NCBI GenBank assembly: GCA_025351345.1
Contig: JANXWB010000020.1
Location: 1-48,877 of the forward strand
Origin: Synechococcales cyanobacterium GL140_1_metabat_312
GTDB taxonomy: Bacteria; Cyanobacteriota; Cyanobacteriia; Leptolyngbyales; Leptolyngbyaceae
Direction of reading: 5' to 3'
DNA length: 48,877 nt
Numbering within the stretch: the stretch's first letter is position 1; every line of letters begins with the position of its first letter. The notes beneath the pieces are model-generated. The model had not been told where the DNA came from, did no database searches, and saw only the letters and a list, made by a program, of their open reading frames with translations. Positions 37,849-45,857 of the stretch are shown here, in pieces. Made by a program: the position numbers and the translations under genes.

Positions 37849-40758
37849 ATGACTTCTCCAACCCCAAAATTCCTCCTTGTGGATGGACATTCCTTGGCCT
37901 TTCGATCCTATTATGCGTTCTCTAAGGGGCGTGATGGCGGCTTGCGGAATTCTGAGGGTGTTCCGACTAGTGTCTCGTTTGGCTTCATTAAGGCATTGCT
38001 AGAAGCAATCGAGATTGAAACGCCTGACTATGTTGCGATCGCATTTGATCTCGGCGGGCCAACCTTTCGCCACATAGAAGACCCGACGTACAAAGCAAAT
38101 CGCAACGAAGCCCCGGAAGACTTTCGACCCGATCTGGACAATCTAGTATTGCTGCTTAGAAGTATGCGATTCAAAATTGTTGTTTCTCCAGGATATGAAG
38201 CCGATGATGTGATTGGGACCATGGCGACCAAAGCGGCGAGTCGAGGCTGGACTGTAAGGATTTTAAGTGGCGATCGGGATTTATTTCAATTAGTTGATGA
38301 CAACGAACATACAAAGATTTTGTATATGAGCAGTACTTTTGGCAAAGCTGCACCGCCGCCTCGTGAGTTTGGGATTGCGGAAGTAAAAGAAAAAATGGGC
38401 GTATTTCCATCGCAAGTGGTAGACTTCAAAGCTTTGTGCGGCGATAGTTCTGATAATATTACAGGCGTGAAAGGGATTGGTGAAAAAACGGCTACGACGT
38501 TGATTAATACTTATGGAACACTTGATAAAATTTATGAATCTATTGAAGAACTAAAAGGAGCGGTGAAACGCAAACTTGAAGAAGGCAAAGATTCCGCTTA
38601 TCATTCTCAGCGGATGGCCCAAATTGAACTTTCTACACCGTTGGATCACGAGCCAGAAGCCTGCAAGTTAGCGCCCTTTGATCCTGAAGAAGTTCAGACT
38701 TGGATTGATAAATTAGAATTCAAAACCTTTAGTGGCAAAATTGAGAAACTCCGTCGGCGTGCTGCTGGGGAGGATGCTGAAACACCTCAAGAATTAGCGA
38801 AGAAATCACAAAAACGATCGCCTTATGTTGATCCAGAAACTTGGTTTTTCAGTTCTGAAGATACCGAAAAAGCATCACTAGAACAATCACAACTGAAACC
38901 TGCAACAATATCTCCTGAAATTATTGATACAGTTGATAAACTTAATGCATTAGTGGAAGGTTTAAAACTCTGCACCAATCCAGAAATTCCCGTGGCTTGG
39001 GACACTGAAACGACATCTTTGGAACCGCGTGATGCAAAGCTAGTGGGGCTGGGATGCTGTTGGGCGGGGGAGTTTGATGGGATGGCTTATATTCCGATCG
39101 GGCACGTTACGGGGCAGAATCTCCCATTGGCAACCGTACTAAATGCGCTCCGTCCAATCCTAGAAAGTGATGATTATCCGAAAGCGCTACAAAATGCAAA
39201 GTTCGATCGATTAGTATTGAAATTCCAAGGGATTAATCTTGCGGGTGTTGTATTCGATACGATGTTAGCGAGTTATGTAATTCAACCTGAAGCAAAACAT
39301 AATCTAACAGATCTCAGTTTGCGTTATCTTGGATTAACTGCCCAAGGTTTTTCGAGCTTAGTGCCCAAGGGGAAAACGATCGCAGATCTACCGATCGCTG
39401 ATGTTGCAATCTACTGTGGTACTGATGTTTACACTACATTTTTACTAGTTAGTCATCTTCAAGAAAACCTCAATCAAACTCCTGACTTACTTAAATTATT
39501 CCAAACGGTTGAGATGCCTCTAGAGCCAGTTTTAGCAGATATGGAAACCGTAGGAATTTGCATTGATAGTGATTACTTAAATGGTTTTTCAAAAGAATTA
39601 GAAAAGGATCTCCAACGTATTGAAATAGCCGCTTATAGTGCTGCGGGAGGTGAATTCAATCTCGGATCACCGAAACAATTGAGTGAATTATTATTTGAAA
39701 AATTAGGACTAGATATTAAAAAATCACGCAAAATCAAAACTGGATTCTCAACGGACGCAGCAACATTAGAGAAACTGCAAGGCGATCATCCTGTCATCGA
39801 TTCTATTGTTGAATACCGAACCTTATCGAAACTCAAATCTACCTACGTTGACGCATTGCCAAACTTGGTTCGATCGGATACGCAAAGAGTTCATACCGAC
39901 TACAACCAAGCCATCACCGCCACAGGCCGACTTTCCTCATCTGAACCAAACCTCCAAAACATTCCGATTCGCACCGCATTCAGCCGCCAAATCCGTAAAG
40001 CATTCATTCCCCGTGACGGCTGGTTGTTGGTCGGTGCAGACTATTCTCAAATTGAATTGCGAATCTTAGCGCACCTCAGCCAAGAGCCTATTTTGCTCGA
40101 AGCCTACCGAAATAATGAAGACGTTCATACCCTAACTGCCCGATTGCTATTGGACAAAGATAATATTTCATCCGAAGAACGCCGCCTTGCAAAAATCATT
40201 AACTTTGGCGTGATCTACGGTATGGGCGCACAGAAATTCGCTCAAGAAACTAATATGAAAGTGCCAGAGGCGAAACAGTTTATTGAACGCTTTAACCAAC
40301 GGTATTCTAAGGTATTTGAATATCTGCAACAAATGAAACGAGAGGCGATCGCAAATCGTTATGTCGAGACTATTTGTGGCCGTCGTCGGTACTTTAGCTT
40401 TAATAGTGAAAGTGTAAAAATACTACAAGGAACAAATCAGAAAGACATTGATCTTAAATCAATTCGATTACGAGATCAATTTGATGCTCAGACTTTGCGG
40501 GCTGCGGCTAATGCGCCTATTCAAGGATCGAGTGCTGATATTATCAAACTAGCGATGATTCAATTGCACCCTAAGCTTAAATCTCTTGATGCAACGCTTT
40601 TGCTACAAGTGCATGATGAATTGATTTTTGAAGTACGTCCTGATCTATGGGAAGAGGTCCGATCGGTAATTCAAGTCACGATGGAAAATGCCGTTCAACT
40701 ATCTGTCCCGCTGAAGGTTGATATTCATTCAGGCAAAAATTGGATGGAGACCAAGTAA
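37849..40758 (+). CDS. polA: DNA polymerase I
   Basis: 969 residues with all three domains. 5' nuclease at ~1-300 (LLVDGHSLAFRSYYAF, GYEADDVIGTMA and SGDRDLFQLV). Proofreading domain at ~370-550 is intact with DTET at 385-388 (Asp and Glu metal ligands). Polymerase domain has motif A DYSQIELRIL at ~731, motif B with KIINFGVIYG, and motif C QVHDELIFE near 920. It functions in Okazaki fragment processing and repair. A ~70-residue variable linker (residues ~300-360, TPQELAKKSQKRS region) lies between nuclease and exonuclease domains. Confidence 0.97.
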   Translation: MTSPTPKFLLVDGHSLAFRSYYAFSKGRDGGLRNSEGVPTSVSFGFIKALLEAIEIETPDYVAIAFDLGGPTFRHIEDPTYKANRNEAPEDFRPDLDNLVLLLRSMRFKIVVSPGYEADDVIGTMATKAASRGWTVRILSGDRDLFQLVDDNEHTKILYMSSTFGKAAPPPREFGIAEVKEKMGVFPSQVVDFKALCGDSSDNITGVKGIGEKTATTLINTYGTLDKIYESIEELKGAVKRKLEEGKDSAYHSQRMAQIELSTPLDHEPEACKLAPFDPEEVQTWIDKLEFKTFSGKIEKLRRRAAGEDAETPQELAKKSQKRSPYVDPETWFFSSEDTEKASLEQSQLKPATISPEIIDTVDKLNALVEGLKLCTNPEIPVAWDTETTSLEPRDAKLVGLGCCWAGEFDGMAYIPIGHVTGQNLPLATVLNALRPILESDDYPKALQNAKFDRLVLKFQGINLAGVVFDTMLASYVIQPEAKHNLTDLSLRYLGLTAQGFSSLVPKGKTIADLPIADVAIYCGTDVYTTFLLVSHLQENLNQTPDLLKLFQTVEMPLEPVLADMETVGICIDSDYLNGFSKELEKDLQRIEIAAYSAAGGEFNLGSPKQLSELLFEKLGLDIKKSRKIKTGFSTDAATLEKLQGDHPVIDSIVEYRTLSKLKSTYVDALPNLVRSDTQRVHTDYNQAITATGRLSSSEPNLQNIPIRTAFSRQIRKAFIPRDGWLLVGADYSQIELRILAHLSQEPILLEAYRNNEDVHTLTARLLLDKDNISSEERRLAKIINFGVIYGMGAQKFAQETNMKVPEAKQFIERFNQRYSKVFEYLQQMKREAIANRYVETICGRRRYFSFNSESVKILQGTNQKDIDLKSIRLRDQFDAQTLRAAANAPIQGSSADIIKLAMIQLHPKLKSLDATLLLQVHDELIFEVRPDLWEEVRSVIQVTMENAVQLSVPLKVDIHSGKNWMETK

Positions 40759-40965
40759 TTTAATTAAACAATCCCGCCATGTCTATATTAACTATGTTTT
40801 AGATCAACTATGCTTAGATCAATTAAGCCTAGATCGGCTACGTTACATATATTTTTGATTGTTCGTAATCGTTCATAGTCCAGGCTAATCTCATTCCCGA
40901 TTTTGAATCCAATTCTAAAAAAAAGATAGAGATTATGCATTTTCAGCGTGAGTTCAGGAGGTTTG

Positions 40966-40979
40966 GTATCGTTCACTAC
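40966..40979 (+). promoter_or_regulatory. NtcA-type binding site upstream of nirB
   Basis: GTATCGTTCACTAC fits GTA-N8-TAC exactly. It is followed 21 bases later by GACGAT (41001-41006), a weak -10 that shares A, A and T with TATAAT at the class II activator spacing. Expected start is ~41013, ~40 bases before the nirB ATG at 41056. Palindrome match is exact; activation by NtcA is inference. Confidence 0.6.
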
Positions 40980-41055
40980 TAATGACCTCTATCATCTTTT
41001 GACGATGCCCTCTAGACTTAACCAAAGAGAACATCATGTATCTAACAACATTCCT

Positions 41056-43599
41056 ATGACGAAGAAGAACCTGGTTGTGATTGGCAATGGCATGGTTGGC
41101 CACAAGTTTTTACAGTGCATGATTGATAAAGGGGCAACAGCGGACTGGAATCTAATTACATTTTGCGAAGAACCTCGGGTCGCCTACGATCGTGTAAATC
41201 TAAGTGGATTTTTCTTAGGCAAAACCGCAGATGATTTATCATTGGTTGAACCCGATCTATATAAAAATAACAATATTCAAATTCACATTGGCGATCGGGC
41301 GAGTACGATCGATCGGACTAGCAAAATCATTACCTCTGCTAATGGCGTAAGTGTCAATTATGACAAAGTAGTATTAGCCACAGGTTCCTATCCTTTCGTA
41401 CCGCCGATCAAAGGTAAAGATACCGATGGGACGTTTGTCTATCGCACCATTGAAGATCTCGAAGCGATGTCCGCCCATGCTAAAAAGAGCAAGATTGGTG
41501 TGGTCATTGGCGGTGGATTGTTGGGATTAGAATGTGCAAATGCATTGAAAAATATGGGATTAGAAACTCATGTCGTTGAATTTGCACCGCGTTTGATGCC
41601 TGTTCAAATTGATGATGTGGGCGGCCATGTTTTAAAAGACCAAATTGAAGCCTTGGGCGTAAAAGTTCACGTTAATAAGTCTACGACCGAAATTGTGAAT
41701 GAAAATGGCACCGTTCATAAAATGGTGTTTGCGGATGGCTCTGAATTGCAAACTGATATGATTGTCTTCTCGGCGGGAATTCGGCCACGGGATGACATTG
41801 CCCGCGATTGTGGATTAGTGGTAGGCGATCGGGGTGGCATTGTGGTGAATGAAGCTTGCCAAACATCGGATCCCGATATTCATGCGATCGGAGAATGTGC
41901 CCTGTATGAAAACCGGATTTATGGTTTAGTTGCGCCCGGTTATACAATGGCCACAGTCGCGGCGGACCATTTATGTGAACCCGAAAGCAATCAATTTACG
42001 GGCGCAGATATGTCCACTAAATTGAAGCTGTTGGGGGTTGATGTTGCGAGCTTTGGAGATGCGTTTGCTAAGACTCCGGGTTCAAAGGAGATTGCCATTA
42101 AAGATTCGGTCAATGGCACCTATAAGAAGCTGGTCGTAAATGAATCGGGTTCATTGTTGCTCGGTGGCATTCTAATTGGTGATGCGTCGGCTTACGGCAA
42201 CTTATTACAACTAGTTCAGAATGCGATCGTTCTCCCGCCGCATCCCGAAGATTTGCTAATGCCGCCTCGTGAGGGTGGTTTAAGTTTCTCTATGGGCGTG
42301 GAAAGTTTACCTGACACTGCACAGATTTGTTCTTGTAACAATGTGACCAAAGCCCAAATTTGTAATGCTATTCAAGACCAAGGCTTAACCGATATTAGTG
42401 CGGTCAAAAAATGTACAAATGCTGGAACAGGCTGTGGCGGTTGTGTTCCCCTCGTCACTGATTTACTTAAAGCCGAACTCAAGGCCGCAGGTATTGAAGT
42501 CAAAAAAGATATTTGCGAACACTTTGCATTCTCCCGTCAAGAACTCTATTCACTGATTCGGACGCATCAAATTAAAACCTTTGATGAATTACTCGATCGG
42601 CATGGAAGTGGTAGCGGCTGTGAAATTTGTAAACCTGCGATCGGGTCAATTCTGGCCTCGGCTTGGAATGATTATGTCCTAACTCCCACTCATGCCGGGT
42701 TACAGGATACCAATGACGCATTCCTTGCGAATATTCAAAAAGATGGAACCTATTCTGTCATTCCCAGAATTCCAGGCGGTGAAATTACACCTAACATGCT
42801 GATTGTGATTGGCGAAGTTGCCCGAGACTTTAATCTGTATACCAAAATTACTGGCGGACAACGGATTGATTTGTTAGGGGCGCGGGTTGATCAATTGCCG
42901 TTAATTTGGGCGCGTTTGGTGAATGCTGGATTTGAATCGGGTCATGCGTACGGGAAAGCTCTGCGGACAGTGAAGTCTTGTGTAGGAAGTACTTGGTGCC
43001 GTTTTGGGGTTCAGGATTCGACTAGTTTGGCGATCGAAATTGAACTACGTTATCGAGGACTGCGCGCACCGCACAAATTCAAATCAGCAGTATCTGGCTG
43101 TACGCGAGAATGTGCCGAAGCGCAGAGTAAAGATTTTGGAATCATTGCGACTGAAAAGGGCTGGAACCTTTACGTTTGCGGCAATGGTGGTATTCGCCCT
43201 CAACATGCGCAACTGATTGCAGAAGATTTGAATAAAGAAACACTAATACAGTACATCGATCGGTTCCTAATGTTTTATATCCGCACAGCAAACCGACTAG
43301 AACGCACTGCCACTTGGATGAATAAAATGGAAGGCGGACTTGACTATCTTAAACAAGTCATCATCCACGATTCCTTGGGCATTTGTGCTGAATTGGAAGC
43401 CGAAATGGCCTATCAAGTTCAAACCTATGCTTGTGAATGGAAAACCACGATCGCAGACCCAGAGAAACTCCAGAGATTTAATCACTTTGTAAATGTAGAT
43501 GGTCCTGACCCAAGTTTAATGCGAGTCGAAGAACGCGGCCAAGTTCGCCCACCGTTTGACCATGAACGATCGGAAGAACGATCGGTTGTGATGCCATAA
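41056..43599 (+). CDS. nirB: NAD(P)H nitrite reductase, large subunit
   Basis: 847 residues, equal to E. coli NirB. An FAD/NAD(P) reductase module (VVIGNGMVGHKF, later GVVIGGGLLGLE) is followed by two BFD-like [2Fe-2S] regions (CSCNNVTKAQIC with GCGGC, then GSGCEICKP). The sulfite/nitrite reductase module has CVGSTWC (C642, C648) and CTREC (C682, C686), the four Cys that bind the [4Fe-4S]-siroheme. It reduces nitrite to ammonium with NAD(P)H. Start: the longest ORF begins at 40948 (GTG), but the NtcA box lies within it, so ATG 41056 is chosen. nirD is 55 bases downstream. Most cyanobacteria use ferredoxin-dependent NirA instead. Confidence 0.92.
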   Translation: MTKKNLVVIGNGMVGHKFLQCMIDKGATADWNLITFCEEPRVAYDRVNLSGFFLGKTADDLSLVEPDLYKNNNIQIHIGDRASTIDRTSKIITSANGVSVNYDKVVLATGSYPFVPPIKGKDTDGTFVYRTIEDLEAMSAHAKKSKIGVVIGGGLLGLECANALKNMGLETHVVEFAPRLMPVQIDDVGGHVLKDQIEALGVKVHVNKSTTEIVNENGTVHKMVFADGSELQTDMIVFSAGIRPRDDIARDCGLVVGDRGGIVVNEACQTSDPDIHAIGECALYENRIYGLVAPGYTMATVAADHLCEPESNQFTGADMSTKLKLLGVDVASFGDAFAKTPGSKEIAIKDSVNGTYKKLVVNESGSLLLGGILIGDASAYGNLLQLVQNAIVLPPHPEDLLMPPREGGLSFSMGVESLPDTAQICSCNNVTKAQICNAIQDQGLTDISAVKKCTNAGTGCGGCVPLVTDLLKAELKAAGIEVKKDICEHFAFSRQELYSLIRTHQIKTFDELLDRHGSGSGCEICKPAIGSILASAWNDYVLTPTHAGLQDTNDAFLANIQKDGTYSVIPRIPGGEITPNMLIVIGEVARDFNLYTKITGGQRIDLLGARVDQLPLIWARLVNAGFESGHAYGKALRTVKSCVGSTWCRFGVQDSTSLAIEIELRYRGLRAPHKFKSAVSGCTRECAEAQSKDFGIIATEKGWNLYVCGNGGIRPQHAQLIAEDLNKETLIQYIDRFLMFYIRTANRLERTATWMNKMEGGLDYLKQVIIHDSLGICAELEAEMAYQVQTYACEWKTTIADPEKLQRFNHFVNVDGPDPSLMRVEERGQVRPPFDHERSEERSVVMP

Positions 43600-43612
43600 C
43601 AATTGCCTAAAT

Positions 43613-43629
43613 CCCCCTTAGCTAGGGGG
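43613..43629. repeat. CCCCC/GGGGG palindrome in nirB-nirD gap
   Basis: CCCCCTTAGCTAGGGGG forms a 5-bp G:C stem extendable by AGCT. It belongs to the AAATCCCCCTTA..TAGGGGGA type of dispersed element common in cyanobacteria, known from memory. Sits between nirB stop and nirD start and may shape differential mRNA stability. Confidence 0.55.
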
Positions 43630-43654
43630 AACCAAACTATTCTCTGAAATACCC

Positions 43655-44002
43655 ATGACCCAAACTACAATCCCAGCCGTATCTCAATGGCAAACCATTT
43701 GTCCCCTCACTCGCATCATTCCAAATACAGGTGTTTGTGCATTAGTCAATAATGAACAAGTTGCTATTTTTAGAATTGGCAATGAAGTCTTTGCGATCGC
43801 TAACTATGATCCCTTTAGTAAAGCCTATGTTTTGTCTCGCGGCATTGTGGGCGATCGGCAAGGTATTCCAAAAGTCGCATCACCTATTTACAAGCAAAAC
43901 TTTAATTTGATCACAGGTGAATGCTTGGATGATGAGTCGGTGAGTGTCCCCGTCTTTCCAGTCCGTGTAATCGACGGGCAAATTCAGGTTGGAATTACTT
44001 GA
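43655..44002 (+). CDS. nirD: NAD(P)H nitrite reductase, small subunit
   Basis: 115 residues, Rieske-fold protein. WQTICPLTRIIPNTGVCALV opens the fold, and YDPFSKAYVLSRGIVGD corresponds to the region that would bear Rieske ligands; the Cys-His pairs are absent, as is normal in NirD. It partners NirB. Located 55 bases after nirB with a palindromic repeat in between. Convergent with pepF. Confidence 0.88.
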   Translation: MTQTTIPAVSQWQTICPLTRIIPNTGVCALVNNEQVAIFRIGNEVFAIANYDPFSKAYVLSRGIVGDRQGIPKVASPIYKQNFNLITGECLDDESVSVPVFPVRVIDGQIQVGIT

Positions 44003-44023
44003 ATGCTTTCTAGTCAATGACTT

Positions 44024-44058
44024 GTTAATCGATCGACTCTTCCAATCGATCGATTAAC
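44024..44058. terminator. 13-bp perfect hairpin at nirD/pepF convergent end
   Basis: GTTAATCGATCGA (44024-44036) and TCGATCGATTAAC (44046-44058) are perfect complements around CTCTTCCAA. The arms include the pepF stop codon and encode its last residues. No T-run follows on either strand, so it is an mRNA-end hairpin candidate rather than a classic terminator. Confidence 0.45.
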
Positions 44059-45857
44059 CGTTCCACATACTGCAATGCCCCACGAATGGTCGCAGCATCT
44101 TCCAAATCAACTTCAACATACTTTTTCAGTGCCTCCACCTGATCCATACTGTCGCCTACCGAAAGCAATTCTAAATATCCTGGAATGAATGCTTTTCCGA
44201 CTTCGAGATACTTTTGATAACAGGCCAAGCTGACAATAGTAGAAGCGGTGTATTGGTAACAGTAGAAGGGTTTGAAAAAGATATGGCCAATGCGCGCCCA
44301 ATCGTATTGATGCTCAGGTAAAAGCTCCACCGCATCCCCGCAAAGATTTTTATACAACTCCATCCAAGCTTGATTAATAAATGTCGCATCAAACGTTCCT
44401 TCCGTGGCCCGATCGTGAATCAGGCGTTCTAGTTGGCTGATCGTACTTTGGCGGAACAGAAGACTTAATTGATCTTCGAGTTGACGAGTGATTAAGGTTT
44501 TGGTTAATTCTTTATCCCCTTCGGCCTGTTTTAATAAATAATCGAGCAACAGCAATTCATTAAACGTCGAAGCAATTTCTGCCGAAACCATGGGCGGCAT
44601 ACTGTTGAAATAGCTTTGCCGATCGGCGATCCAGGAAAAATGTAACCCGTGCCCCATTTCGTGAGCCAGCGTAAACAGTGAACTGTGGTCCTCGGTATAG
44701 GATTGCAGCAAATAACTATGCTTGCCGTGAATGTACCAACAGAATGCCCCACCTTGTTTACCGGGCCGCACCGTTGCATCCACCCAGTTATTGACGAAAA
44801 ATTCTTCCGCCCGACGCGCATAGTTCACGTCAAACTGTTCGATCGCCGCCATCAAAGTCTTAACACCTTCCTCGTAGGGAATTGCAGGCACGGCCTCAAG
44901 ACTCCAAGGAGCATACAGATCGGCACTGCAAATAATCTGGCCTAGGGCTTTTCCTTTCAAACGGTAATAGCGCTGAAATAGGTCTGATCGATCGCCCATT
45001 CCCTCCATGATTGCATTGAAAACAGATTTGGATACCTGATCGCCCAGGAGTTGTTTTTCCAGGGTTGAGCTGTGGCCGCGCATCTCGTTTTCTAGTCTAT
45101 GGTCTTGGGCAACGGCGTTGAGAATGTAGGCATAGAGAGAGTTGTGGGTCTTCATGACCGATCGGATGGACTGATAGGCCGCAGTGCGAGTGTCCCGATC
45201 GGGATGGAAGGCTAAGGCTCCAAGTTCAGCTTCAGTGCTGGCGGTTTGATTGCTGGCAGTTTGATTATTAGGCAGGGTGACGAGGGGGTAGGTTTGTTCG
45301 CCTAGATGGACCGATCGAAGCTGGATGAATGCTTCACGGCCTGTGAGGCTGCTCTGGTTGCGGGTTTGTTCGACGGCTTCGGAAAGGAGATAGGGGCGGG
45401 ATTTGTCAATTTCGTGGAGGTAGTGCTGGTAAATCTGGAGTTCGGGAGCGATCGTTAATTTTTGAAATTGCTCTGGGGTAAGTTGCTTGAGTTCTAGGTC
45501 AAAAAATAAAAGTTGATTCTGAAGCTGGGTGTAGGTTTCCATGGCTTTATCCATGGCTTGTTTAGCGATTTTGTTTTGGGTGTTTGCGTTGAAAATTAAT
45601 GCCGGAAAGGCGTACAAGTAGCCCGATCGTTCATACATTGCTTCAAGTTGATGTAAACAATCGGCAATTTCTATGGGGCTAAGGCTATTGACGTGATTGT
45701 GATAGGTTTCACGAAACTGTCTTGCGGCAAGCTTGAGGGCATGGAGATCGGTTTCGATCGCAGGATCTTCAAAGCCGTTGTAGAGGTCAGATAGATCCCA
45801 GGCGGGGGCAGAAGATGAGGATTTTACTTGGGCTTGAAGGGTATTCCAGTACTGCAT
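44025..45857 (-). CDS. pepF: Oligoendopeptidase F family metallopeptidase (M3)
   Basis: 610 residues, normal for PepF/M3B. The zinc site HEMGH (HExxH in TLAHEMGHGLHF) and the downstream Glu region (MVSAEIASTFNE) are visible; PGKQGGAFCWYIHG and GDAVELLPEHQYDWARIGHIFF in outline are typical PepF. Cytosolic peptidase that breaks oligopeptides of about 7-17 residues. Start ATG at 45857 lies 132 bases from the ParA-like gene on the other strand. A short duplicated segment NQTASNQTAST (residues ~206-216) reflects a 15-base tandem repeat. Confidence 0.93.
   Translation of the reverse strand: MQYWNTLQAQVKSSSSAPAWDLSDLYNGFEDPAIETDLHALKLAARQFRETYHNHVNSLSPIEIADCLHQLEAMYERSGYLYAFPALIFNANTQNKIAKQAMDKAMETYTQLQNQLLFFDLELKQLTPEQFQKLTIAPELQIYQHYLHEIDKSRPYLLSEAVEQTRNQSSLTGREAFIQLRSVHLGEQTYPLVTLPNNQTASNQTASTEAELGALAFHPDRDTRTAAYQSIRSVMKTHNSLYAYILNAVAQDHRLENEMRGHSSTLEKQLLGDQVSKSVFNAIMEGMGDRSDLFQRYYRLKGKALGQIICSADLYAPWSLEAVPAIPYEEGVKTLMAAIEQFDVNYARRAEEFFVNNWVDATVRPGKQGGAFCWYIHGKHSYLLQSYTEDHSSLFTLAHEMGHGLHFSWIADRQSYFNSMPPMVSAEIASTFNELLLLDYLLKQAEGDKELTKTLITRQLEDQLSLLFRQSTISQLERLIHDRATEGTFDATFINQAWMELYKNLCGDAVELLPEHQYDWARIGHIFFKPFYCYQYTASTIVSLACYQKYLEVGKAFIPGYLELLSVGDSMDQVEALKKYVEVDLEDAATIRGALQYVERLIDRLEESID

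Follow-up and report, generated by a model that had tools for sequence, protein, structure and literature searches.

At the locus described here, within a window that comprises the whole analysed stretch of 48,877 nucleotides, a predicted nirB gene is followed on the same plus strand by nirD, with a gap of 55 bp between the two (Table 1). NirB exceeds the cut-offs of both NF011565 (1289 bits, cut-off 883) and TIGR02374 (1120 bits, cut-off 578.35). Its Pfam domains are Pyr_redox_2, Fer2_BFD (two stretches), NIR_SIR_ferr and NIR_SIR, and the single chain holds a FAD/NAD domain, a BFD-type [2Fe-2S] domain and a siroheme/4Fe-4S domain. The siroheme/4Fe-4S cysteines are residues 642, 648, 682 and 686, positions that are cysteine in all 48 cyanobacterial rows of the alignment and in 8 of 11 other rows, and the [2Fe-2S] cysteines are also present. 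The full-length NirB with all four siroheme cysteines of the original prediction is thereby confirmed, as is the NirD encoded beside it, which scores 119.9 bits against TIGR02378 (cut-off 74.65), 127.4 bits against NF007066 (under the cut-off of 135) and has sequence matches to the solved NirD chains 2jza, 2jo6 and 4aiv. Alignment with relatives guided the choice of the ATG as the start of nirB; the open frame extends further upstream, to a GTG at 40948. Measured against the same-genus orthologues at L143, nirB has a Ka/Ks of 0.034 and nirD one of 0.063, from which it follows that both genes are under purifying selection. The identity of the pair as a predicted siroheme NAD(P)H nitrite reductase is solid. 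Glutamate is found in 59 of 59 rows at NirB E175, which we take to be the position of the residue that usually decides between NADH and NADPH. On the basis of this acidic residue and of what is known of the family, NirBD is probably driven by NADH.

Table 1. Features in and around the nirBD locus, in window coordinates
Feature	Position	Strand	Remarks
polA	37849-40758		Upstream of nirBD; name from reading the translation
TGCA element, possible NtcB-type half site	40936-40939	+	30 bp before the box
NtcA-type box GTA-N8-TAC, GTATCGTTCACTAC	40966-40979	+	Exact match; 90 bp before the NirB ATG
TATCAT, alternative -10 candidate (TAN3T)	40990-40995		10 nt after the box
TAGACT, putative -10 (TAN3T)	41013-41018	+	33 nt after the box; same offset in 6 of 30 box-bearing loci
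nirB, NAD(P)H nitrite reductase large subunit	41056-43599	+	847 aa; NCBIfam and Pfam matches, cysteines
Short hairpin in the nirB-nirD gap, ATCCCCCTTAGCTAGGGGGA	43611-43630	+	Member of a dispersed repeat
nirD, small subunit	43655-44002	+	115 aa; family match, downstream of nirB
pepF-like gene	44025-45857	-	Downstream of nirBD; name from reading the translation

The nirB-nirD arrangement is constant across the loci compared, nirD lying downstream of nirB in 49 of 49 (47 by gene calling, L019 and L151 by tblastn), and in four of them (L020, L029, L036, L152) an extra open frame separates the two. By eye, the frames at L029:8623-9153 and L036:8567-9220 are CutA-like and transaldolase-like respectively. 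The surroundings of the pair vary. In a clustering of the neighbours of the 49 loci, the commonest families besides nirD occurred in 11, 9, 9, 8, 8 and 7 loci, and several of the recurring families centre on Microcoleus-type loci. Within the genus of the window the polA neighbourhood is common to L143 and not to L009, and in the same-genus genome G162 the order of polA, nirBD and one member of the downstream cluster matches that of the window. No association of nirBD with nitrate genes emerged from this clustering, which a lone nitrate gene at a single locus could escape. The hairpin in the gap was rejected as a terminator or RNA element, as its fold z-score is -1.39 and it is absent from terminator-like sites. 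Its sequence has 11 matches in the genome at up to 3 mismatches, compared to 1 for the reversed control; it is a dispersed repeat and not part of the nirBD system.

The NtcA box is defined as GTA-N8-TAC in the part of the source available (PMC3898017), and the exact site that had been predicted ahead of nirBD is indeed found. By count alone a single box in the window is unremarkable, since six are found against a shuffle mean of 4.19, with six or more in 21 of 100 shuffles. Its position is what sets it apart. An exact box starts 60-110 bp before the NirB start in 30 of 47 non-redundant cyanobacterial nirB loci, which do not amount to 30 independent events because the loci are related. Eleven other 50-bp stretches contain a box in 0-1 of 46-47 loci each, and shuffles gave a mean of 0.345 and a maximum of 2. 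Box-bearing loci include named Microcoleus, Calothrix, Oscillatoria, Phormidium, Trichocoleus and Leptolyngbya among others, and the bases flanking the box differ between them. The exact box is absent from the remaining 17 loci, including G165 and G216; ten of these form deep NirB branches without any box-bearing member, and the other seven are dispersed through the remaining 38.

In a canonical class II NtcA promoter the box is centred near -41.5 and a TAN3T element follows about 22 nt downstream. A TAN3T near 22 nt after the window box was searched for and is absent, and because the two TAN3T elements stand at 10 and 33 nt we do not class the window promoter as canonical class II. Among the 30 box-bearing loci TAN3T lies 20/21 nt after the box in 19 and 33 nt after it in six, namely the window, L009, L143, L013, L133 and L139; the remaining offsets up to 45 nt account for no more than four loci each and 19 hits together. 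The box is also accompanied by TGCA, which occurs at -51/-52 in 20, at -29/-30 in 12 and at -20/-21 in 12 of the 30 loci (shuffles 0.2 each). At any of these recurring offsets, which were selected after the data had been viewed, TGCA is found in 28 of 30 loci compared to a shuffle mean of 0.78 and a maximum of 5. The window does not have the -51/-52 TGCA. The NtcB motif consists of TGCA pairs, TGCAN5TGCA, and among the 17 box-less loci this spacing is seen in L145 only.

The nirA promoters of the same carrier genomes serve as a comparison. nirA is a known NtcA target according to the available part of the source (PMC3898017), and an exact box precedes it in 27 of 30 loci, a set in which some genomes contribute a second copy and one split gene counts as two pieces. 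TAN3T follows 22 nt after the nirA box in 26 of the 27, and TGCA is found at -51, -42, -29 or -20 in 18 of the 27. The control gene polA carries a box at one of 29 loci; this set includes pieces and loci with short upstream sequence. The three nirA loci without an exact box are those of G165, of G216 and of the window genome itself, where a one-mismatch box, GTGATTTTGGATAC, is followed 22 nt on by TAGGGT. The apparent promoter layout of nirBD is thus common to nirA at slightly different spacing (22 nt in nirA compared to 20/21 or 33 nt in nirBD), and from this shared layout we infer that the nirBD promoter is under NtcA control. Control by NtcB is suggested as well, with less confidence. Taken together, the evidence for a nitrogen-regulated nirBD promoter, drawn from sequence comparison, is good.

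A check for nirA, narB and nrtP elsewhere in the genome, which had accompanied the original prediction, turned up nirA, a NarK/NrtP-type transporter and a narB-like gene. The 3.85 Mb genome encodes its own NirA of 631 aa (NF007125 860 bits, cut-off 594; L089:8764-10659, contig C58), which carries a C-terminal plant-type ferredoxin-like domain. NirA-ferredoxin fusions are known in Plectonema/Leptolyngbya, and 17 of the 26 carriers of nirBD have a NirA match that reaches residue 630 of 631, as it does in the ferredoxin-fused form. The transporter adjoins nirA (TIGR00886 335.5 bits, cut-off 311.7), and past it lie genes for Rieske-like, HEAT-repeat-like, LysR-type regulator and anthranilate-phosphoribosyltransferase-like proteins. 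From their position the LysR-type regulator is presumably NtcB and the anthranilate-phosphoribosyltransferase-like protein CnaT; NCBIfam gives neither name to the genes near nirA, and the best match of the LysR gene is GltC (155 bits, cut-off 350). NtcA itself is encoded in the genome (TIGR03697 371 bits, cut-off 245). The narB-like gene is located on a separate contig and rises above no NCBIfam cut-off, its best scores being Fdh-alpha (545.7 of 666) and NasC (516.4 of 1100); we take it to be NarB, in part from its position in relatives, since 19 of the 26 carriers have their NarB match no more than 10 kb from that of NirA. Every one of the 26 carriers searched (the 25 genomes whose NirB exceeds the cut-off, and G206, a fragment) has matches to both NirA and NarB, and nirBD is therefore an addition and not a replacement. 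Both matches are split in G275, and NirBD as the only nitrite reductase of that genome was considered and rejected, as PolA is split there too, which makes assembly errors the likelier cause.

Of 388 genomes sampled from the class, each at least 90% complete, 25 encode a NirB above the curated cut-off. In a quick tree the 48 cyanobacterial-type NirB rows are split from 16 rows of other phyla with a support of 99, and the genus of the window groups with G165 and G216, which belong to another family (support 100). The NirB data reject a single clade for the family of the window (AU p 0.000473), and a clade uniting the genus with G165 and G216 is rejected by PolA (AU p 0.00374). These p values are optimistic because the groups were chosen with the trees already in view and PolA is the sole reference. 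The nirBD pair is moreover found in varied neighbourhoods, the widest recurring neighbour other than nirD being shared by 11 of 49 loci. Trees and neighbourhoods together indicate lateral transfer of nirBD within cyanobacteria as the simplest reading. A cyanobacterial-type nirBD is also seen on L038, a contig titled Candidatus Gracilibacteria, where it groups with Hydrococcus (support 100); this contig is probably misbinned.

To our knowledge, nitrite reduction in cyanobacteria is generally presented as dependent on ferredoxin alone. Cyanobacterial NirBD shares its domain order, cofactor cysteines and small subunit with the NirBD of enterobacteria and other bacteria (NF011565/TIGR02374 and TIGR02378), and shows about 58-63% identity to non-cyanobacterial relatives among the matches listed. 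It differs from these in forming a branch of its own and in carrying an NtcA-type promoter; E. coli nir is under FNR/NarL control. Compared with cyanobacterial NirA the same reaction is expected and the TGCA, GTA-N8-TAC and TAN3T layout is held in common, whereas the protein family and the electron donor are different. A gene named 'nirB' also exists in Synechococcus elongatus PCC 7942; its product is an unrelated protein that NirA requires for full activity, and the name is a trap. It is this 'nirB' that is placed under NtcA in the table of a review, as far as its available part goes (PMC13421787). The NirBD family and the presence of both NirA and NirBD in cyanobacteria are already in print. 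In the portion of the 2022 report that was available, cryoconite cyanobacteria carry nirA with nirBD, the role of the latter is called not well known, nitrite assimilation plus NAD+ regeneration in anoxia is proposed for it, and NtcA, NtcB or a promoter are not mentioned (PMC8941735). In the accessible part of a biofilm metaproteome, which is a growth course and not a day-night series, Microcoleus nitrogen proteins including NirBD tracked photosynthesis and carbon assimilation over growth (PMC7367855). The gene pair and the kind of organism in these two partial sources are the same as here (PMC8941735; PMC7367855). No report of the conserved NtcA-type promoter with TGCA, of its two main spacing classes or of the transfer evidence was found in the open-access literature searched.

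It is proposed that nirBD encodes a self-contained, NtcA-controlled NADH nitrite reductase that is accessory to NirA and has moved between cyanobacterial lineages, a reading that we hold to be fairly probable. Most likely the pair would supply an additional enzyme for nitrite assimilation that shares its nitrogen control with nirA. The predicted nirB-nirD product would convert nitrite to ammonium. NtcA would activate the promoter under nitrogen shortage, perhaps alongside the LysR-type activator NtcB signalling nitrite, and judging from the promoter layout common across genomes nirBD would be switched on together with nirA. Because this second reductase would draw on NADH and not on reduced ferredoxin, nitrite could be assimilated, and kept from accumulating, when ferredoxin electrons are scarce or contested. 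Cyanobacterial NarB also accepts electrons from ferredoxin, and NirBD would therefore relieve the nitrite step only. The role in the dark under limiting reduced ferredoxin that was originally suggested is a guess. A minority of cyanobacteria (the carriers among the sampled genomes) have a probable NADH-type enzyme besides NirA, and the promoter layout shared with nirA would tie nirBD to the nitrogen regulon and make its role open to simple tests. A bolder version, which we put forward tentatively and with some doubt, is that nirBD is a plug-in cassette that spreads laterally with a ready-made NtcA/NtcB-type promoter and joins the nitrate regulon of the host on arrival. If this is true, the host regulon gains a ferredoxin-independent nitrite reductase.

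NirBD might instead serve chiefly as an electron sink in dark anoxic mats, where NADH would be oxidised with nitrite and NAD+ regenerated in fermentation, with ammonium as a by-product. Such a sink has been proposed by analogy with E. coli for the cryoconite cyanobacteria with nirA and nirBD, as the available part of the report has it (PMC8941735), and glutamate at the NADH-type position in every row fits it. Against it, the nirBD promoter is laid out like that of the nitrogen gene nirA, and the Microcoleus nitrogen proteins followed photosynthesis in the accessible part of the biofilm study (PMC7367855), both of which are still compatible with a double role. As the chief function it is rather unlikely, and a nitrogen-controlled NADH enzyme could contribute to both nitrite assimilation and NAD+ regeneration.

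The enzyme could also be real and the box a relic in the lineage of the window, NtcA having ceased to act through it and nirBD being driven by another promoter. The 33-nt spacing and the lost -52 TGCA of the window, together with a sister lineage (L010/L135) that lacks the exact box, are in line with this. Yet the exact box is retained in the window, L143 and L009, a spacing of 33 nt is also seen in L013, L133 and L139, and a simple sigma-70 scan of 40759-44100 gave two promoter-like sites (41282 and 43644), fewer than in shuffles, which fall inside genes or the nirB-nirD gap. We consider a relic improbable. Still less credit is due to the view that the contig derives from a contaminating non-cyanobacterial genome, even though NirBD is commonest outside cyanobacteria and many of the relatives are MAGs. 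The genome has a completeness of 99.99 and a contamination of 0.08, its NirB belongs with the cyanobacterial-type rows that stand apart from those of other phyla, and contamination is very unlikely because the linkage of polA to nirBD and the downstream gene is shared with the same-genus G162.

Other features of the regions ahead of nirB deserve a brief description. The NirB branch of L030, L033, L034, L035, L130, L145 and L146 has no NtcA-type box, and by eye several of its members have a GGGATCGATCAC-like stretch closer to the start, possibly the site of a different regulator. In the window a seven-codon open frame (41036-41059) ends with a stop that overlaps the start of nirB (ATGTAT...CTATGA); by eye this frame is retained in L143 and has no ATG in L009.
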